Source of the DNA: a virus
DNA length: 27,702 bases
IMG/VR virus record: IMGVR_UViG_3300029319_000216
Location: 1-27,702 of that record
Strand: one strand, 5' to 3'
Position 1 is the first letter of the stretch; each line of letters opens with the position of its first letter. A model generated the notes under the pieces. That model did not search any database, had not been told where the DNA came from, and saw only the letters and a list, made by a program, of their open reading frames with translations. Below are positions 4,849 through 27,702 of this stretch, piece after piece. Made by a program: the position numbers and the translations under genes.

Positions 4849-6741
4849 ATGGCTAGTATTATTGAAAGACTCACCGAAGGTGTTGTCAATCGTGATATGC
4901 GCGCCGAAGGTCACGCTTTGTTAACAAAGTGGGAGCGCACAGGTCTCTTAGAGGGACTTGAAAATGACCGTCAGAAGAACTCCATGGCTCGACTCCTTGA
5001 GAACCAAGCCAAGGAACTTCTTCGCGAGGCAAGTACTCTTGCTGCTGGTGACGTTGAAGGTTTTGCCGCTGTTGCATTCCCAATCGTCCGACGCGTTTTC
5101 GCTGGACTTATTGCAAACGATCTCGTTTCTGTCCAGCCGATGAGCCTCCCAAGTGGACTCATCTTCTTCCTTGACTTTGTGTTCTCACCAGATCTTGGTG
5201 GCACCGCCGATGCACAAGACACACGTCTTGGAAACCGTCCTAACCGTTCCCTATATGGTACTGATCAGGTTGGTTCGGAAATCACTGGTGGCGTTGATCT
5301 GATCGACGTTTCCAACAAGGCAGGCTGGGGTGGCCCACTTCGTGATGGTGCCACTGGTTATGCATATGCATCTCCAACCGGCTCTAATGCAACCACTGTT
5401 GCAAACGATACAAGTAACGCTGTCCTTAGAACGTTCCTGCTTGATGGTGCCGTTTCTGAGACCGATATGAAGCGCATTCAGTATGATGCAGATTTGCTGT
5501 CTATTACTGACAGCTCTTATGGTGTTGCTGTACTCGATGTTGCCACAAGCGAGCATGATTCTTCCATTGGTGATCCTGACTTCAACAACTTGTCGGCTTT
5601 CACTTTGGCTCCACTTGCACGTGGAGTTGATCGTGAAGCGGCTCTGTCTAACACGTTCATCACTGCCTTGGCCAACCATGGTGGTATTACATCGGCATCG
5701 CTCGATGACAATGACGCAGATCAGGTTCGTCGTCTAACAACACGCCTGAAGAATGCTGACAGTATGTTGGCGTCTGATGGTGGTGAGGCAATTCGCTACG
5801 TTATTGTCGCTGATGCTACAATTGTTTCAGCGGAATCCGCCGCTGCCGCAGTCGGTAGTACTCTTGCTGCAGCCGACTTTGTGTACCCAGTTCAAGATCA
5901 GATTGACGCTGTTACTGGTGTGCCCGGTGCGGTTGTTGGTGACCTTTTCCCACTGGAAAACAACACCGACATTCCAGAGATCGATATCAAGGTCGACTCA
6001 ATCGCTGTTACAGCGCAGACCAAGAAGCTCAAGGCGAAGTGGACTCCAGAGTTAGGACAGGATCTTAACGCTTACCACAACCTTGATGCTGAGGTTGAGC
6101 TTACCAGCATTCTTTCGGAGCAGATCGCTCTCGAAATCGACCGTGAGATCCTCGCAGATCTCGTTAACGGTGCTACCGCTGCTACCTACTACTGGTCCCG
6201 CTCTCCCGGTCTTTTCGTGAACCGCGAGACTGGTGCTGAGCTTGGTGCAACTGCTGCCGCTCCAGACTTTACTGGTACGGTTAGTGAGTGGTATGAGACA
6301 CTCGTTGAGACAATCAACGATGTTTCTGCACAGATTCACCGCAAGACTCTCCGTGGTGGTGCTAACTTCGTCGTTTGTTCGCCAGAAGTTGCCAACATCC
6401 TTGAGTTCACTGCAGGATTCCGTGCATCCGTTACTCACGATGCAGAGAGTGGTTCAATCGGTGCTGTCCAAGTCGGCTCGCTGAGCAAGAAGTTTGATGT
6501 CATTGTTGACCCATACTTCCTCCGCAACGTTGTCCTCGTCGGCCGTCGTGGTTCTAGCTTCCTTGAGTCCGGATATGTGTACGCTCCGTACGTGCCACTC
6601 CAGACTACACCAACAATCTTCGGACCTGAAGACTTCGTGCCACGTAAGGGGGTCATGACCCGTTACGCGAAGCAGATGGTTCGTCCAGATATGTACGGTC
6701 TAGTCGTTGTGCGTGGCCTCTTAGGCGAGTCAGGCTCCTAA
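4849..6741 (+). CDS. gp23: Major capsid protein, T4 gp23-like
   Basis: A 630-residue HK97-fold capsid protein of the T4 type. The N-terminal helical part runs through QAKELLREASTLAAGD and PIVRRVFAGLIANDLVSVQP, followed by MSLPSGLIFFLDFVF. This matches the T4 gp23 pattern of a helix, then VQPM, then P-x-G with an aromatic strand. The C-terminal region (about residues 515-625) holds VSLSKKFDVIVDPYF-like, LVGRRGSSFLESGYVYAPYVPL and RYAKQMVRPDMYG segments typical of the family. T4 gp23 is 521 residues; the extra length lies mainly around residues 130-330. LRE at residues 58-60 fits the (L/I)-x-E rule of the T4 prohead protease and is a candidate cleavage site. Codons are strongly biased, as expected for the most abundant virion protein. 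A strong terminator follows. Confidence 0.95.
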   Translation: MASIIERLTEGVVNRDMRAEGHALLTKWERTGLLEGLENDRQKNSMARLLENQAKELLREASTLAAGDVEGFAAVAFPIVRRVFAGLIANDLVSVQPMSLPSGLIFFLDFVFSPDLGGTADAQDTRLGNRPNRSLYGTDQVGSEITGGVDLIDVSNKAGWGGPLRDGATGYAYASPTGSNATTVANDTSNAVLRTFLLDGAVSETDMKRIQYDADLLSITDSSYGVAVLDVATSEHDSSIGDPDFNNLSAFTLAPLARGVDREAALSNTFITALANHGGITSASLDDNDADQVRRLTTRLKNADSMLASDGGEAIRYVIVADATIVSAESAAAAVGSTLAAADFVYPVQDQIDAVTGVPGAVVGDLFPLENNTDIPEIDIKVDSIAVTAQTKKLKAKWTPELGQDLNAYHNLDAEVELTSILSEQIALEIDREILADLVNGATAATYYWSRSPGLFVNRETGAELGATAAAPDFTGTVSEWYETLVETINDVSAQIHRKTLRGGANFVVCSPEVANILEFTAGFRASVTHDAESGSIGAVQVGSLSKKFDVIVDPYFLRNVVLVGRRGSSFLESGYVYAPYVPLQTTPTIFGPEDFVPRKGVMTRYAKQMVRPDMYGLVVVRGLLGESGS

Positions 6742-10572: not shown

Positions 10573-13557
10573 ATGTCAGTTAAAAGTTTCAAGTTTGTAT
10601 CTCCGGGCGTCTTTATCAATGAGATTGATAATTCGTTCATTCCTAGGTCCGCAGATGCAATCGGTCCAGTGGTCATTGGTAGATCAACCCGTGGGCTAGC
10701 AATGACTCCTGTAAAAGTTGAGTCATATTCACAGTTTGTAGAGATGTTTGGAGAGACCGTTCCGGGTAACCGAGGCGGCGATATTTCAAGATATGGAAAT
10801 GAGCAATCTCCTATGTACGGTACGTATGCCGCTAAAGCGTTCTTAAACGCAAACGTTGCACCGCTGACCTACATCCGTCTTCTCGGAACTCAGAACACAA
10901 ACGCCACTTCAGGATATGCCGGCTGGAAGACAGCCAATAACCCAGTTTCGGGTAACGTTTTCAGAGCCGGCGGCGGCAACGTTGATAGCATCGGTGGTGC
11001 ATTCGGCTTGTGGTTGTTCCCATCAGGAAGTGATGATAGCTTCGCTCAAGACTCTGTTGGAACTGGCTCGTTAGCAGCAATTTTTTATGCTGAAAGCGGT
11101 GCATCTATTATGCTTACTGGCGCGATGTATCACGGTGGCCAAAAAGACTTAGGTCTTGGTAAGCCTATTGCAAACGATTCAACCTCTAAAGAGTACACAC
11201 TTGCGATTACATCATCTGATGGTCTAGAAAAAATAGCTATTAGCTTCGACGACACCAGTGAAAACTTTATCCGCAAGGTTGTCAGCACTAACCCACAGCT
11301 AACAACAACTGCTGGTGCCTTCTACCCGTCTTCTTCCGCCAAGAAATATTGGTTAGGAGAAACATTTGAGCAATCATACCGCGCTCATCCAGTCGGCAAC
11401 TATGGAACTTCCCCCTATACTGGCGGTGGAACAGACTTGTCAACTGCACAAGGATACGCTATAATTTTACCAATTGCCAGTGGTTCTTCAGCGGCCACCG
11501 GTCCACAAAACTTACAACAACAAAGTTCACGAGAAGCAGTTGCAGGTTGGTTTATAGGTCAGGATCTTGGAGCCGCCGCCAGCTACTTCCCAGAAAATGC
11601 ACAAAAGCTTTTCAGACTAGTCGGACGCGGCCACGGTTCATGGTTGTCTGAAAACGTTAAAGTTTCAGTTGAAAAAATTCGCCAATCTAATACGACCATT
11701 ACTGATTACGGAACGTTCTCAATTGTTCTTAGATCCCTGTCTGATACTGATAACAAGGTGCAGGTACTTGAAAGATTTGACAACCTAACACTTGATCCAA
11801 CATCACCTGACTTTGTGGCCCGTAGAATTGGCGACAAATATGTTGAATGGGACAACACTGCTCGCAGCCTTAAAACATACGGAGAGTACGATAACCTTTC
11901 TAAGTTTGTCTATGTTGATATGGACTCTACCGTAGAGGCCGGCGGAACCGACCCGCTATTGTTACCATTTGGTTACTACGGCCCTCCGAAGTTTAAAGAT
12001 CTAAACCTTGGAGGCACCGGCAGAGATATATCCACAACCGCTGGTGTATGCGATAAGGATAAGACAACTTATGTACGATCAGCCGCTGGTATTCACTTGG
12101 GCCCAACTGGTTCTGTTATGATTACCGGGTCTCATGTCAATGATGCGGAGACCTTCAAGTTGCTCTCTAAAGGTCTTGCTGGTCTGTTCACGTTCCCAAT
12201 GGCTCGTTTGCGTCTTTCTGCCTCCGATGGCGGCTTAGCAGACCCAACCAATGCATACTTTGGAATGAGTAGCACTCGTGAGGCGTCGGCAACCAGACCA
12301 GATCAGAGCTTAAGAGACTTCCATAGACTCTTGTACGCGTCTTTCCCCGATGATCCAACATCAGCAACAATCAACGGAGTTGATCAGTTTGCTTATATTT
12401 TCTCGCTAGACGACGTTCAGGCACATTCTTCCGACGGAGGATACTACTATCAATCTGGCTCTAGAAAAGGCGAAGGCAGCGTTTCAGGTAAGTCTAACCA
12501 AAATTACAAGACCCTTCTAGATGCAGGTTACGACAGATTCACTGCTCCATTCTGGGGAGGTTTCGATGGATTCGATATTCACCACCCAGACCCTCTTTAC
12601 AACGAGGGGATCGGTGCCAGTGCTACAGAGTTGAACAGCTATGCTTACAATACTTATAGGCAAGCAGTTGATACAGTTGCTGACCCTGAGTCTCTCGATA
12701 TGAACTTGTTACTAGCTCCGGGTCTAACTGTTGACGCACTAACCGGCCACATGGTAGACGTTTGTGAAGAGCGCGGCGACGCACTGGCTCTTATCGACCT
12801 TAAAGATGTATACCACCCGGCACATGAGAAGTACAATTCTAATAAAAAAGACAGAATTGCCACAACTCCAGTTCAGGCCGCAAATGCATTAAGAGATAGA
12901 AGATTGGATTCCTCCTACGGCGCCACATTCTACCCATGGGTTCAGACCCGTGACGACAGAACTGGTCAGCTTGTTTGGATTCCGCCCACAGTTGCCATGG
13001 CAGGTGTCTTGGCTTCCTCGCAAGCTAGTGCAGATGTTTGGTTCGCGCCGGCCGGCTTCAATCGCGGTGGCCTTTCCGACGGAGCAGCTGGAATCCCAGT
13101 TGTCGGTGTAACCGAAAAGCTTTCTTCTAAGGATCGCGACACACTTTACGAAGCTAGAATCAATCCAATTGCTTCATTCCCTTCAAGTGGTATTGTGGTC
13201 TTTGGTCAGAAAACCCTCCAAGAAAGACAGTCGGCTCTAGATAGAATTAACGTTCGCAGACTCGTTATCTACTTGAAGAAGCAGATTTCAGTTCTGTCAA
13301 CTCAGGTTCTCTTTGAACAAAATGTTCAAGCCACTTGGAACAGATTTATCTCACTTGTTGAGCCGTTCCTCGCCAATGTCAAGGTTCAATTTGGTATCAC
13401 TGATTACCGCTTGATACTTGACGAGAGCACAACTACCCCAGACTTAATCGATCAGAACATTCTATATGCGAAGATTATGGTTAAGCCTGCCCGCGCTATC
13501 GAGTACATCGCAATTGACTTTGTGATTGCCTCAACTGGCGCCTCGTTTGACGATTAA
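10573..13557 (+). CDS. gp18: Contractile tail sheath protein, T4 gp18-like
   Basis: A 994-residue protein with GAGGGG (10560-10565) as ribosome binding site. The N-terminus (FVSPGVFINEIDNS, then GPVVIGRSTRG) is the standard start of contractile sheath proteins. The C-terminal ~130 residues are the conserved sheath core, with GIVVFGQKTL, then INVRRLVIYLKKQISV, and then VQFGITDYRLILDE. T4 gp18 is 659 residues; the extra ~330 residues lie between residues about 110 and 640 and are probably surface domains of the sheath. The segment at about residues 710-860 (LAPGLTVDALTGHMV, ERGDALALIDL, FYPWVQTRD) is the usual Rossmann-like sheath domain preceding the C-terminal core. The protein polymerises around the tail tube and contracts during infection. 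Confidence 0.93.
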   Translation: MSVKSFKFVSPGVFINEIDNSFIPRSADAIGPVVIGRSTRGLAMTPVKVESYSQFVEMFGETVPGNRGGDISRYGNEQSPMYGTYAAKAFLNANVAPLTYIRLLGTQNTNATSGYAGWKTANNPVSGNVFRAGGGNVDSIGGAFGLWLFPSGSDDSFAQDSVGTGSLAAIFYAESGASIMLTGAMYHGGQKDLGLGKPIANDSTSKEYTLAITSSDGLEKIAISFDDTSENFIRKVVSTNPQLTTTAGAFYPSSSAKKYWLGETFEQSYRAHPVGNYGTSPYTGGGTDLSTAQGYAIILPIASGSSAATGPQNLQQQSSREAVAGWFIGQDLGAAASYFPENAQKLFRLVGRGHGSWLSENVKVSVEKIRQSNTTITDYGTFSIVLRSLSDTDNKVQVLERFDNLTLDPTSPDFVARRIGDKYVEWDNTARSLKTYGEYDNLSKFVYVDMDSTVEAGGTDPLLLPFGYYGPPKFKDLNLGGTGRDISTTAGVCDKDKTTYVRSAAGIHLGPTGSVMITGSHVNDAETFKLLSKGLAGLFTFPMARLRLSASDGGLADPTNAYFGMSSTREASATRPDQSLRDFHRLLYASFPDDPTSATINGVDQFAYIFSLDDVQAHSSDGGYYYQSGSRKGEGSVSGKSNQNYKTLLDAGYDRFTAPFWGGFDGFDIHHPDPLYNEGIGASATELNSYAYNTYRQAVDTVADPESLDMNLLLAPGLTVDALTGHMVDVCEERGDALALIDLKDVYHPAHEKYNSNKKDRIATTPVQAANALRDRRLDSSYGATFYPWVQTRDDRTGQLVWIPPTVAMAGVLASSQASADVWFAPAGFNRGGLSDGAAGIPVVGVTEKLSSKDRDTLYEARINPIASFPSSGIVVFGQKTLQERQSALDRINVRRLVIYLKKQISVLSTQVLFEQNVQATWNRFISLVEPFLANVKVQFGITDYRLILDESTTTPDLIDQNILYAKIMVKPARAIEYIAIDFVIASTGASFDD

Positions 13558-13621: not shown

Positions 13622-14206
13622 ATGCCATTCTGGTCAGAATCGTTCCAAGATCCAGCTTTAAAGGATCCGAAAAGAAAATTTAGATTTACTGTAGAGTTCC
13701 AAGGTGTCTCTGCTGCCATTGGGGGCGCGGTATTGTGGTACGCCAAAACTGTATCAAAGCCTTCATTTCAAATTGCCGCTGCTGAGCACAAGTATTTGAA
13801 TCACACCTTCTATTATCCGGGTTCTGTTACATGGCAGGATGTTAGCGTTACTCTCGTTGACCCAGTTGATCCAGACATGGCAGCAACTTTCTCTGATATT
13901 ATTGTTCAAGGTGGCTATACCCCGCCAAGTGATGCAACTTCTCTCGGTACTATGTCCAAAGGAAAAGCATCCTCTGCGCTAGGATCAGTGATTATTACCC
14001 AAATTGACTCCGATGGCAACCCTTTAGAAACTTGGACCCTTTGGAATGCGTTTATTACAGAAGTTAAATATGGTGACCTAGAATATGGTGGTGACGATTT
14101 AACAGAAATGAGCCTTACTCTCAAGTACGATTGGGCAAGAGTCAAGACAGCCGGCGCTTCTGTTGCAACAGCTGGCTCAGGGCAGCAAGAATTCTTCAAA
14201 GTTTAA
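13622..14206 (+). CDS. gp19: Tail tube protein, T4 gp19-like
   Basis: A 194-residue protein directly after the sheath gene, the usual place for the tube. It carries the T4/phage tube pattern: FRFTVEFQGV near the N-terminus, WYAKTVSKPSFQI, then HKYLNHTFYYPGSVTWQDVSV followed by TLVDPVDPD. The C-terminal half has LETWTLWNAFITEVKYGDLEY and then LTEMSLTLKYDWARV, which matches the closing strands of the tube fold. T4 gp19 is 163 residues. The protein stacks as hexameric rings inside the sheath and forms the DNA channel. The start has GGGAG (13608-13612) upstream. Confidence 0.9.
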   Translation: MPFWSESFQDPALKDPKRKFRFTVEFQGVSAAIGGAVLWYAKTVSKPSFQIAAAEHKYLNHTFYYPGSVTWQDVSVTLVDPVDPDMAATFSDIIVQGGYTPPSDATSLGTMSKGKASSALGSVIITQIDSDGNPLETWTLWNAFITEVKYGDLEYGGDDLTEMSLTLKYDWARVKTAGASVATAGSGQQEFFKV

Positions 14207-14234: not shown

Positions 14235-15104
14235 TTGTCAAGAAATAAGGATCGGATGGGACTTGGTGAAATGCCAACACCCGAGAACGCTGAAGTCCCT
14301 CCGCAAATGATGAACCAAGGAAACAATGATAATCCTTTCTCGTTCATAGTCCCCACAGAGTTCGTAGAACTACCGTCAATGGGCATGTTTTATGCTCAAG
14401 GGCACCCTCTGCATAATCAGACTACGATTGAGATTAAGCAGATGACAGCCAAAGAAGAGGATATTTTAACTTCACGAGCCCTTCTTAAGCAGGGTATTGC
14501 GATTGATCGATTAATATCCAGTATTATAGTTAATAAGTCTATTAATCCTAATACACTATTGGTTGGTGACAGAAATGCGATTCTCATTGCAGCTAGAGTT
14601 TCTGGCTATGGTAATGTTTACGAGACATCAGTTCGTTGTCCAGCATGCGGCGAGACGAACAAGCATATGTTTAACCTAAGCGATCTGTCAACCTATACGG
14701 GCGACGGAATAGATCCCACAGAGATCGAAACCAATAACGATGGGACTTTTAACACTACGTTACCCAAAAGCGGCGTTGAAGTAACATTCAGGCTATTAAA
14801 CGGGCAAGATGAAAAAGCCCTACTTAGTCAGGCTGAGAATGCGCGCAAGAGAAAAGGTAACGAAAACGCGATAACACGACAGCTAAAAAGACTAATCTTG
14901 GCAGTAAACGGCAACACGGAGTTAAAAAATATTAACTATGTTGTCGATAACATGCCATCCTCAGATGCTAGACATTTGAGATTAATGTATAAAATCGCTA
15001 CTCCTAATATCGACATGTCTCAAAAATTTGAGTGTGAATCTTGCGGCCACGAAGAGGACATGGAGGTGCCGCTGACTGCGGACTTTTTTTGGCCTGACCG
15101 ATGA
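14235..15104 (+). CDS. Baseplate hub/assembly protein, T4 gp26-class, with zinc ribbon
   Basis: A 289-residue protein starting at TTG with AGAGGTG (14224-14230) four bases upstream. Residues 38-130 contain VELPSMGMFYAQGHPLHNQT, then the helix KQMTAKEEDILTSRALLKQG, then VGDRNAILIAARVSGYG. This is the pattern of the T4-type baseplate hub protein annotated gp26 in many T4-like phages. Two CxxC pairs (C135/C138 and C267/C270) probably bind zinc. It lies between tail tube and tape measure, where other tailed phages encode tail assembly chaperones. The last codons contain a seven-T run (15084-15090) that could shift ribosomes into the next frame. The gp26 label is from memory of the family, and a chaperone-type role is also possible. 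Confidence 0.65.
   Translation: MSRNKDRMGLGEMPTPENAEVPPQMMNQGNNDNPFSFIVPTEFVELPSMGMFYAQGHPLHNQTTIEIKQMTAKEEDILTSRALLKQGIAIDRLISSIIVNKSINPNTLLVGDRNAILIAARVSGYGNVYETSVRCPACGETNKHMFNLSDLSTYTGDGIDPTEIETNNDGTFNTTLPKSGVEVTFRLLNGQDEKALLSQAENARKRKGNENAITRQLKRLILAVNGNTELKNINYVVDNMPSSDARHLRLMYKIATPNIDMSQKFECESCGHEEDMEVPLTADFFWPDR
15084..15090 (+). promoter_or_regulatory. Seven-T run, candidate +1 or -2 frameshift site
   Basis: The zero-frame reading is GAC TTT TTT TGG CCT GAC CGA TGA. A slip of +1 (or -2) on the T run leads into an open frame reading GLTDEY and continuing as the 79-residue ORF. The shifted frame is open from 15076, so the overlap can be read through. Tail chaperone genes just before tape measures often use such shifts. 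Confidence 0.4.
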
Positions 15105-24469: not shown

Positions 24470-25765
24470 ATGTCAGAATATTTAATTGAAGATACCACTA
24501 AAGAGTCTACTATAACCAGATTCAACAAGAGGGTCATATACGAAACAGCAGCGCGCTCTAGAACGGTGCACAGGGGTATATCAAACGTCACTACTTTTAA
24601 TTATTTTGAGCTTGCTTATTACGGTAAGCTTGATCAGAGATATGTTCCTTTTTATTTAGATGGTAGTAATAACACTGCGTTTGGCGTAATCGCCAAACCT
24701 TATTCTGATGGCAATCAGCCGATGAAAGTGGCAAACTTTGTAGCTGACATCTTTAATGAAATGGCTAGAGTATTTAACCAGTCGGCAGGAGTTGGTAAAA
24801 TATCTAAAAATGAAAAATACCTGTCGCAGTTAAAGGTTTACAGAGCATACGAAGACCCGATTATCGGCTATAACAACTACATCAATCTTATTGGACAAAA
24901 ACTAAGGTCCATATTTATAAAAAAATCGATTAAAGTAGAAAACTTTGATCATTTTATGAAAGAAATGCAGGTGGTTATGCCAGAGATAGCAAAAAGGTTT
25001 CCGTTGACGCTTTCTGGCTATATCAAAAGTAAACACAGCACCATATTCTCTTCCGGCTTGGCCCTTGAGTTGGCCGACATAGACTATGAAAATGATCATG
25101 AAAAAATTGTTAACTTTTACAACAGCAAAAACTGGGATTTTTTTGTACAAGCTTGCAATAACTACGGTTTTAGAATAGATAGAAACATACCTTGGAGAAT
25201 CGTGTGCGATATAGAGGCCGACGGTGTTGTTGACTTTATTGCAAGCCGAGGTTATATTGCAGCTGGAGATTTTTTATCCAGAGGTACCGCATCTGGAGTT
25301 GCTGGATCAATTAAAGAATTGCCTCGTATTTTACTGAGAATTTATAACATAGTGAGATTTAATCGATTCTCTGAAACCGTAAGGTGCGATGACGGAACAA
25401 TAAAACAAGTCGCTAAAACATCCCAAACATATTCACAAAGCAATTTTATCAGCGAAGCTAATTTAAGTGTTACATATTTTGCTAGAGAATATATTAAATT
25501 GAGATTGATAGAAGAAAATATTGATATAACTCAAAAAAGAAAAGAAATGCTAATTAGAGATCTTATAAAACTCTCGCTCGACAATAGAAGTTTCTTTCCG
25601 ATCGAGAGACTTTTTGAAGAAAAAATAAACAATTTAGTTGACAAAAAGTTTACTTTCAATTATTATAAATACGTAAAGGAGCCGGCCCGAGTTATGAGAG
25701 AGTTTGATCGCGGAGAAATCTCTTCATACAGCATGGGCAACTCCAACTCTTCCACAGGCTACTAA
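24470..25765 (+). CDS. Conserved-looking phage protein of unknown function
   Basis: A 431-residue protein. The start is 12 bases after the giant gene; its ribosome binding site is weak (GATGAGAG). The N-terminal half contains SNVTTFNYFELAYYGKLDQR and IAKPYSDGNQPMKV, suggesting beta strands around a virion-style domain. The middle (about residues 140-250) is helical, with FDHFMKEMQVVMPEIAKRF and NNYGFRIDRNIPWRIVCDIE. The C-terminus ends in a low-complexity Ser/Gly/Asn tail (SYSMGNSNSSTGY). No known enzyme motif was seen. Its stop overlaps the polymerase start by one base (TAATG), so the two are probably translated together. It may be the last structural gene or may belong functionally with the polymerase. 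Confidence 0.5.
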   Translation: MSEYLIEDTTKESTITRFNKRVIYETAARSRTVHRGISNVTTFNYFELAYYGKLDQRYVPFYLDGSNNTAFGVIAKPYSDGNQPMKVANFVADIFNEMARVFNQSAGVGKISKNEKYLSQLKVYRAYEDPIIGYNNYINLIGQKLRSIFIKKSIKVENFDHFMKEMQVVMPEIAKRFPLTLSGYIKSKHSTIFSSGLALELADIDYENDHEKIVNFYNSKNWDFFVQACNNYGFRIDRNIPWRIVCDIEADGVVDFIASRGYIAAGDFLSRGTASGVAGSIKELPRILLRIYNIVRFNRFSETVRCDDGTIKQVAKTSQTYSQSNFISEANLSVTYFAREYIKLRLIEENIDITQKRKEMLIRDLIKLSLDNRSFFPIERLFEEKINNLVDKKFTFNYYKYVKEPARVMREFDRGEISSYSMGNSNSSTGY

Positions 25766-26946
25766 TGTTTTTCCAAACCCTTGACGACAAGTCAGAGTGT
25801 GTCGGTGTGTATCAGGCCGGCAAACTTTATTTTGACACCATACCGAACGATCTCAAAATTACATGGAACCATAGCGGATTTTTGACTGATAAAGAAATCG
25901 AATATGTATCTTTGTGGACACAAGGCAAAACGCTTGAAGAGTGCTGTCCTGAAGAGCACATCGATGAGCTTCGAAGCTGTAAAAACAAATTACGGGCTTA
26001 TCTAAAATCTTTTAATATCGCTAAAATCAATATGAACGATCACTGCATCTATGATCTGATACCGCATGATTTTTTGCTGAGATTTTGTGAGATTAAAAAT
26101 AAAATCACCGAACACGTATACAGCAATTTTGAAAAACCTGTTCATTATGAGCACCTCAAAGACGTTCACATCCTACTCAGCAAGATAAAATGTCAAAAAC
26201 TAAACGTCTCTACATCTGATTGCATACATCTCTTAACGAACACGAGAGATAGAAACAAAATTGTTGACTTGGCAAAAAGAAGCAACTATATTGATTATAA
26301 CTTATTTGGTACTGCAACAGGACGCCTTACGACAAATAAAAATTCATTTCCGATACTGACTCTCAAAAAAGAATTGCGACAAATTGTTAAGCCAAACAAC
26401 GACCTGTTCGTTAGCTTAGATTATAATGGCGCAGAGGTTAGGACGTTGATAGAACTATCTGGAGAAGAGCAGCCAGATATTGATATTCACGATTGGAACT
26501 CAAAGCACCTGTTTGAACAAGAGGTCAACAGAGACGAGTGCAAAGTTAGGTTTTTTGCTTGGCTCTACGACTCAGAGTCTAATGATGTAAAGAACTCGAT
26601 TTATGACAAAGAAAAAGTACTTGACAAGTGGTATTTAAACGGTTATGTTATGACCCCATACGGTAGAAAATTGCTAGTAGAGAAGAGAAAAGCCCTAAAC
26701 TATCTGCTCCAAAGCACTACGTCCGACAGGGTGTTGGCCAAGTCAGTTCTTATTGACAACTACTTAACACAGAATAATTGTAAATCTTATATTTCTCACA
26801 TTGTTCATGACGAACTTGTAATTGATTATTGCGATAAAGATCGCCATCACCTTGAAGCAATAAAGCAAATTTTTGAAGATGGCTTTCTTACTAATATAAG
26901 TGCAGGCAAAGATTACTTCAATCTTAAAGAGTTGGATAGAATATGA
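25765..26946 (+). CDS. Compact family A DNA polymerase (polymerase domain only)
   Basis: A 393-residue protein with all main family A polymerase motifs. TGRLTT is at 185-190. Motif A is SLDYNGAEVRTLIELSG at 217-233, with catalytic D219. Motif B aligns as R256, K260, F264 and Y268 with E. coli Pol I R754, K758, F762 and Y766. The GR turn is at 300-301, N312-Q316 match Pol I N845-Q849, and motif C HDE is at 348-350 with catalytic D349. The 180 residues before TGRL fit a thumb; there is no exonuclease or 5' nuclease domain. Motif A to C is 130 residues against 177 in Pol I, so fingers and palm insertions are short. T4 itself uses a family B polymerase. It overlaps both neighbours (1 and 4 bases). 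Replication role is likely, though repair is possible. Confidence 0.88.
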   Translation: MFFQTLDDKSECVGVYQAGKLYFDTIPNDLKITWNHSGFLTDKEIEYVSLWTQGKTLEECCPEEHIDELRSCKNKLRAYLKSFNIAKINMNDHCIYDLIPHDFLLRFCEIKNKITEHVYSNFEKPVHYEHLKDVHILLSKIKCQKLNVSTSDCIHLLTNTRDRNKIVDLAKRSNYIDYNLFGTATGRLTTNKNSFPILTLKKELRQIVKPNNDLFVSLDYNGAEVRTLIELSGEEQPDIDIHDWNSKHLFEQEVNRDECKVRFFAWLYDSESNDVKNSIYDKEKVLDKWYLNGYVMTPYGRKLLVEKRKALNYLLQSTTSDRVLAKSVLIDNYLTQNNCKSYISHIVHDELVIDYCDKDRHHLEAIKQIFEDGFLTNISAGKDYFNLKELDRI

Positions 26947-27702
26947 TATCAATCGTCGGCATCGGCAACCCAGCATCAAAAATAGCTACTTTGTTTAAAG
27001 AAACTAGCAATTATGACGTTTTTTGCCTTAACAGTGCTGTTAAGAAAAACTCTAAAAGGAACTTTAGGCTCAAAGATTACGACAATCCAGAGGAATACGA
27101 AAAGAACATTCCAAACTTAAAAAAGTTTTTTACCGAGATACAAGACACGGTTCAAGTTATTGTAGTCGGAGCCTCAAATAGCTCAAATTATACACTTGGC
27201 ATCTTAGAGCAAATCAAAGATAAAAAAATAGAATTATTTTATATAATGCCCGACACCGAACTTATGAACGGCACAAAGAAGCTTATTAACAATGCTGTAT
27301 TTGGGGTGCTTCAGGAGTATGGTCGCTCCGGTGTATTTGAGTCGTTCACAATAATTTCAAATCTTGAGATTGAAAAAACACTTGACAGCGTGCCGATAAA
27401 GAGTTACTATGATACTATCAATAAGACAATATTTTCTGTCATGCACTATATTAATTTTTTTAATCACGCTGAGCCCGAGATTGGAATGGTTTCAAAACCA
27501 CTAGATATGAATCGAATTCGTGCTTTCGGCGCCCTCAGTCCAAAAAATCTTGAAGAAAAATGGTTTTTTGAGCTTGACACTCCGAGGGACATGTGCTATT
27601 ATCTTTGTATAAATAAAGAAAAACTTGAAACAGACGGTACTTTACACAGAAGAGTGGTGGACATTATTAAAAACAAACCAAAAAATTCATATAAGCGCAT
27701 AT
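26943..27702 (+). CDS. Possible tubulin/FtsZ-like protein (3' end outside window)
   Basis: Starts at ATG 26943, overlapping the polymerase stop (ATGA), and runs open to the window end; 253 residues are visible. The layout resembles FtsZ/tubulin: VGIGNPASKIATLF (5-18) like the first nucleotide loop, YDVFCLN (24-30) like the FtsZ strand before NTD, VVGASNSSNYTLGIL (74-88) where the GGGTGTG loop would be, IELFYIMPD (96-104), FTIISNLEIEKTL (135-147) like FtsZ IPN-x-x-L, SYYDTINKTIFSVMHYIN (154-171) like the core helix, and DMNRIRAFGAL (188-198) like the D-x-A-D-v-x-t-v-M region. The signature loop is not canonical, so nucleotide hydrolysis may be lost. A plain Rossmann-type protein is the alternative. 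Phage tubulins are known (PhuZ), but from other phage groups. Confidence 0.5.
   Translation, partial: MISIVGIGNPASKIATLFKETSNYDVFCLNSAVKKNSKRNFRLKDYDNPEEYEKNIPNLKKFFTEIQDTVQVIVVGASNSSNYTLGILEQIKDKKIELFYIMPDTELMNGTKKLINNAVFGVLQEYGRSGVFESFTIISNLEIEKTLDSVPIKSYYDTINKTIFSVMHYINFFNHAEPEIGMVSKPLDMNRIRAFGALSPKNLEEKWFFELDTPRDMCYYLCINKEKLETDGTLHRRVVDIIKNKPKNSYKRI

Follow-up and report, generated by a model that had tools for sequence, protein, structure and literature searches.

Results

A family A polymerase gene between the tail and replication genes

The window, i.e. the whole stretch of viral DNA analysed here (27,702 nucleotides), is part of a 34,293-base virus record of which the adjoining 6.6 kb were read too. 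It carries a gp23-type major capsid protein (4849..6741, +; PF07068, E 4e-73) and, as further context, a contractile tail sheath (10573..13557, +), a gp19-type tail tube protein (13622..14206, +) and a T4 baseplate hub-type protein (14235..15104, +). These genes bore out an earlier reading, made from the letters alone (the sequence-only reading), that the DNA belongs to a T4-related phage. The last gene of the tail module codes for a 431-aa protein (24470..25765, +) which was present in 78/78 eligible loci and had no match in Pfam. Its stop overlaps by 1 bp (TAATG) with the ATG start of a 393-aa frame (25765..26946, +), a putative family A DNA polymerase of the divPolA1 type that has no 3'-5' exonuclease domain. 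The polymerase stop overlaps by 4 bp (ATGA) with the next gene which encodes a predicted tubulin/FtsZ-fold protein and runs off the window end (26943..27702, +). Thus, the previously reported overlap with both neighbours was confirmed. It suggests translational coupling of the polymerase with these genes.

Behind the polymerase follow genes for the tubulin-fold protein, a gp32-like SSB, RecA, UvdE, a 5'-3' exonuclease and the DnaB helicase. All were assigned by Pfam except for the tubulin-fold protein which was recognized from a structure model. After DnaB the window's record contains the beginning of one more gene, whose homologue in the related record G001 resembles ribonucleotide reductase; the G001 assignment is based on similarity to the annotated phage RM378 and on the position in Flavobacterium phage immuto. 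Gene order was surveyed in 88 related loci, each gene being counted over those loci that were long enough (eligible). Except for UvdE the order hardly varied. The tubulin-fold gene came first after the polymerase in 88/88; SSB was found downstream in 56/56, RecA in 32/33, the 5'-3' exonuclease in 22/23 and DnaB in 21/21 eligible loci. UvdE, a UV-damage endonuclease, was near the polymerase in 10/23 eligible loci and absent or elsewhere in the rest. In the window's subgroup it is located in the replication operon (L003:15681-16622, positions 30681-31622 of the G000 record). With SSB, RecA, UvdE, the 5'-3' exonuclease and DnaB all located downstream, the replication module starts with the polymerase gene, immediately after the last tail gene. 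The sequence-only reading had placed it inside the virion gene cluster. The gene does lie at the edge of this cluster, directly after tail genes, yet it is the first replication gene; because the window stops shortly past the polymerase, just the tail side had been visible.

At least 556 loci of this polymerase group were matched in one scan. The relatives are T4-related phages of environmental metagenomes, and a host-integrated relative was not detected in a scan of genome contigs. A tblastn search of 50,697 phage records matched only immuto phages and four human-gut records. Both gut records that were examined (L141 and L142; MT836618 and MT835753) are labelled human-gut phage and encode a full-length Pol I of bacterial type, 5' nuclease domain included. 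They were rejected as relatives and are probably mislabelled bacterial contigs.

The catalytic residues are intact

The 393-aa protein matched Pfam DNA_pol_A with an E-value of 1.6e-14 and 54.1 bits (curated cut-off 34.3) and the PHROG DNA polymerase phrog_17 with E 3.5e-20. An AlphaFold2 model computed from 51 sequences had a pLDDT of 88.3 and a pTM of 0.88, with helices starting from about residue 57. Its top PDB matches were the Klenow, Bst and Taq polymerase folds (E about 1e-11), and in a viral structure library it also matched phage family A polymerases. The family A assignment is thus well founded on both the Pfam score and the fold.

Conservation was examined in an alignment of 51 sequences, and residue equivalence to E. 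coli Pol I was taken from hhalign. The catalytic aspartate of motif A, D219 (in DYNGAEVRT; 26419..26421, +), corresponds to Pol I D705 and was unvarying in 51/51 sequences. Motif B, the O helix, reads R256-xxx-K260-xxx-F264-xxx-Y268 (26530..26571, +). R256, K260 and F264 (Pol I R754, K758 and F762) were invariant, and Y268 (Pol I Y766) was replaced by F in 2 of the 51 sequences. The residue following Y268 is D or N in all 51 aligned polymerases whereas motif B of Pol I has G. Motif C is H348-D349-E350 (26806..26814, +), of which H348 and D349 (Pol I H881 and D882) were invariant. E350 (Pol I E883) is S in one lineage of the set, G002, and in immuto gp001 the motif C Glu is replaced by Ala. R187 (Pol I R668) and Q316 (Pol I Q849) were invariant as well. 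The steric gate E224 (Pol I E710) is E in 49/51 sequences and D in the other two. Judged from the sequence, E224 together with F264 points to the use of dNTPs. Motifs A, B and C with the catalytic D219 and D349, as noted before, therefore hold across the entire group.

Purifying selection on the polymerase is strong. Comparison of the window with the related locus L004 gave a pN of 0.14 and a pS of 0.87, and among close pairs dN/dS was about 0.05-0.07. Unvarying catalytic residues and the large excess of synonymous over replacement changes demonstrate a maintained polymerase gene and rule out a chance frame.

A proofreading domain is absent

In the window polymerase only 218 residues precede motif A. 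In E. coli Pol I about 350 residues lie between the first exonuclease Asp, D355, and D705. Accordingly, an exonuclease domain cannot fit. The protein also had no Pfam match to PF01612, and on both counts the reported absence of a proofreading domain stands. Motif C follows motif B at a distance of 89 residues, compared with 124 in E. coli Pol I (alignment numbering). This indicates reduced fingers, shorter by about 35 residues. With short fingers, and with D or N at the position of the motif B glycine, the polymerase may have an altered or weak activity.

The sequence-only reading had proposed a search for a separate 3'-5' exonuclease. None turned up among the related records in Pfam searches with PF01612 and DnaQ/RNase_T. 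The gene annotated as 'exonuclease' in immuto, gp090, which lies beside the primase, was considered as a candidate; the neighbouring gene in G001 did not match it.

The polymerase matches the published divPolA1 type

Yutin et al. (2024, Virol J 21:200, PMC11348598) described divPolA1 as a divergent PolA which has lost the exonuclease, in 14 phages, namely Flavobacterium phage immuto and its relatives, some of them ocean GOV bins. It always occurs beside a regular PolA, PolB or PolC. Conserved replication genes are located downstream, and chaperonin genes are near the regular DNA polymerase. From the fixed replication context these authors inferred that divPolA1 takes part in replication (PMC11348598). 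Tubulin is not mentioned in that paper.

In a direct comparison of sequences with immuto gp001, the window polymerase matches this published type. By hhalign the two aligned with an E-value of 1e-11 over 276 columns, the region before the palm included, whereas E. coli Pol I aligned over the palm alone. Like gp001 and divPolA1 in general, the window protein has lost the exonuclease, i.e. it has no working 3'-5' exonuclease, and it has intact palm residues and a truncated thumb. Replication genes are directly downstream and the order in immuto is the same: tail genes up to the map end, then gp001, two small genes, SSB, recombinase, 5'-3' exonuclease and DnaB. As in divPolA1 phages, where it belongs to family A, B or C, the regular DNA polymerase is encoded elsewhere in the genome near chaperonin genes (GroEL/GroES); in our relatives this was seen as DnaE in 17 records and GroEL in G001. 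There are also differences. The window protein has 393 aa and gp001 441 aa, with 24% identity. The partner in the present group is always a family C DnaE, and between polymerase and SSB there is a tubulin-fold gene, a place taken in immuto by two small genes that are unrelated to it.

Phylogeny, which the sequence-only reading had suggested, was examined in a tree of 16 sequences. The group was split from regular PolA with support of 100/99. Immuto gp001 and T7 formed long branches, so the inner order of this tree says little.

With bacterial Pol I the window protein shares the palm, the R-K-F-Y motif B and the HDE motif C, and it occurs, as Pol I does in the bacterial cell, together with a replicase of family C and a 5'-3' exonuclease activity. 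Here, however, the 5'-3' exonuclease is a separate gene, the 3'-5' domain is gone and the fingers are shortened. The divPolA2 proteins of barbaviruses are likewise extra, exonuclease-less PolAs next to a regular DNA polymerase (Yutin et al., 2024). By their description they differ in that the genes around them vary, the N-terminal domain is novel and several paralogues are often present, in contrast to one copy in a fixed neighbourhood here.

Rhodothermus phage RM378 had been named as a precedent because it too is a T4-related phage with polymerase and exonuclease in different genes. This was not tenable. RM378p092 has the family B palm motifs DFTSLYPS and YSHTDS, and RM378p024 has a family B-type exonuclease motif, FIDIET. 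It is a split family B enzyme, non-homologous to the window protein (hhalign probability 0.4%, no relation), and lends no support to a split of a family A polymerase.

Relatives encode a family C replicase

Whole-record searches covered 22 related records, the window's own included, among them records of 195,690, 192,821, 203,204 and 187,393 bases. G001 begins and ends with the same 98 bases, which suggests a complete circular map. A family C DnaE was found in 17 of the 22 records, 12.8-18 kb downstream of the family A polymerase. The five records without DnaE end at or before that distance. The window's own is one of them and ends about 8 kb past the polymerase; for this phage we infer a DnaE by synteny.

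DnaE of G001 (L029:12778-16248) consists of 1156 aa and comprises a PHP, a catalytic, a fingers and an HHH domain, and its closest PDB structure is Taq DnaE; the G002 copy is at L035:15790-19245. Thirteen full-length copies were compared on the basis of an alignment with Taq DnaE, and none of them had lost a catalytic Asp or any of the nine PHP metal ligands. A PHP domain of the DnaE1 type is capable of proofreading when its set of ligands is complete. With ligands and catalytic Asp intact, this DnaE may thus proofread for itself, which fits the absence of DnaQ-type and PF01612 exonucleases in the relatives.

Family B polymerases, which the sequence-only reading had named as potential evidence against a main replicase, were not found in the 22 related records. 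The 16 records in which Pfam matched a family A polymerase contained just one such gene each. Pfam searches of the relatives yielded neither a beta clamp nor a phage DNA ligase, and runs on further G001 genes detected no clamp or clamp loader. Several other genes were recorded. A DnaG-like primase homologue is located elsewhere in relatives. In G001 a GroEL homologue is 11 kb from dnaE, a dUTPase is near dnaE, and there are two Clp-protease-family genes (L029:3974-4645 and L029:11763-12395). In addition, G001 has a calcineurin-like nuclease (SbcD/gp47-type) fused to an SMC-like ATPase (SbcC/gp46-type; L032:11710-14823, i.e. G001:182710-185823, -); in T4 these are separate genes.

The tubulin-fold neighbour

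Of the genes at this locus, that of the tubulin-fold protein is the hardest to account for. A full copy is available, for example, at L004:11176-12030. The protein had no match in Pfam or PHROG and no convincing match in a sequence search of the PDB. Its model (pLDDT 89.6) matched structures of TubZ and FtsZ with E about 1e-12 and a TM-score of about 0.65-0.72. In most members the phosphate loop has the sequence G[SAG]S[YF]SSNY, compared with GGGTG[ST]G in FtsZ, and the T7 catalytic loop is changed too. G001 has a second, canonical tubulin/FtsZ-family protein (L032:10054-11193, i.e. G001:181054-182193, -) with a Pfam Tubulin match above cut-off and an intact GGGGTGS loop.

Possibly the polymerase and a non-polymerising tubulin-fold partner with degenerate GTP loops form one functional unit in which the partner would tether or position an accessory polymerase at the replication site. 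We consider this quite doubtful. If true, a member of the tubulin family would serve as a replisome component.

Discussion

DnaE was present wherever a record extended far enough and a family B polymerase was not found in the 22 records. Hence DnaE most likely is the replicase and the family A enzyme is accessory. The window protein probably is an accessory, proofreading-free polymerase of Pol I type (divPolA1) which serves in gap filling and primer replacement while DnaE most likely copies the genome. The polymerase would extend 3' ends into gaps and put new DNA in the place of RNA primers or excised patches, like Pol I does beside Pol III. The separate 5'-3' exonuclease of the operon would stand in for the 5' nuclease part of Pol I that the polymerase lacks, and the gp32-like SSB and RecA would assist the polymerase. 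DnaE would copy the bulk of the phage genome. As a phage ligase was not found by Pfam, sealing of nicks would fall to the host ligase. Enzymatic activity, the gap-filling role, cooperation with the 5' nuclease and DnaE as main replicase are what we infer from these data. UvdE in 10/23 loci fits a repair role, and the inference of Yutin et al. (2024) may leave room for a core function of divPolA1 at the replication fork.

Could the enzyme be confined to low-fidelity lesion bypass or to repair, e.g. to filling patches after incision by UvdE? The lack of an exonuclease and the reduced fingers are in line with this, as is the fact that in the window's subgroup the operon encodes both UvdE and a 5'-3' nuclease. 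However, UvdE is nearby in fewer than half of the eligible loci and the polymerase in all, and the equivalents of R754, K758 and F762, which act in the closed-fingers state, are fully conserved as in the accurate Pol I. An exclusive role of this kind therefore appears unlikely.

The sequence-only reading had favoured a main replicase, with proofreading either lost or provided by a separate exonuclease. The position of the gene at the head of an operon with SSB, RecA and DnaB in essentially all loci argues for it, as does the distance of 13-18 kb to DnaE. Against it, every related record reaching far enough (17/17) encodes in addition a full-length DnaE whose PHP and catalytic residues are intact, a DnaQ/RNase_T or PF01612 exonuclease which might proofread was not found, and an enzyme with reduced fingers and without proofreading is a poor candidate for copying 190-200 kb. 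A main replicase is thus very unlikely. The original observation was sound; its reading as the main replicase within a virion cluster was mostly wrong.

That the fold was reused for a primase, an RNA polymerase or a structural subunit, with DNA synthesis lost, is highly improbable: T7-like phages did co-opt Pol A folds as RNA polymerases, Yutin et al. (2024) kept the possibility for divPolA2, and the motif C Glu is Ser in the G002 lineage and Ala in immuto gp001, yet both catalytic Asp, the steric gate (Glu, or Asp in two sequences) and the dNTP-binding Arg, Lys and Phe are conserved, purifying selection is strong and relatives already possess a DnaG-like primase homologue elsewhere.

The accessory Pol I-type polymerase belongs to a known class. 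What is new is the abundance of the group, its constant pairing with a DnaE that has an intact PHP domain, and the coupled tubulin-fold gene with altered GTP loops. The notion of a T4-like phage which replicates by an error-prone family A enzyme is thereby removed. Instead, an abundant group of T4-related phages consistently combines DnaE with a pared-down Pol I and with a 5' nuclease encoded by a gene of its own, so that the bacterial division of labour between Pol III and Pol I would be united in a single virus.
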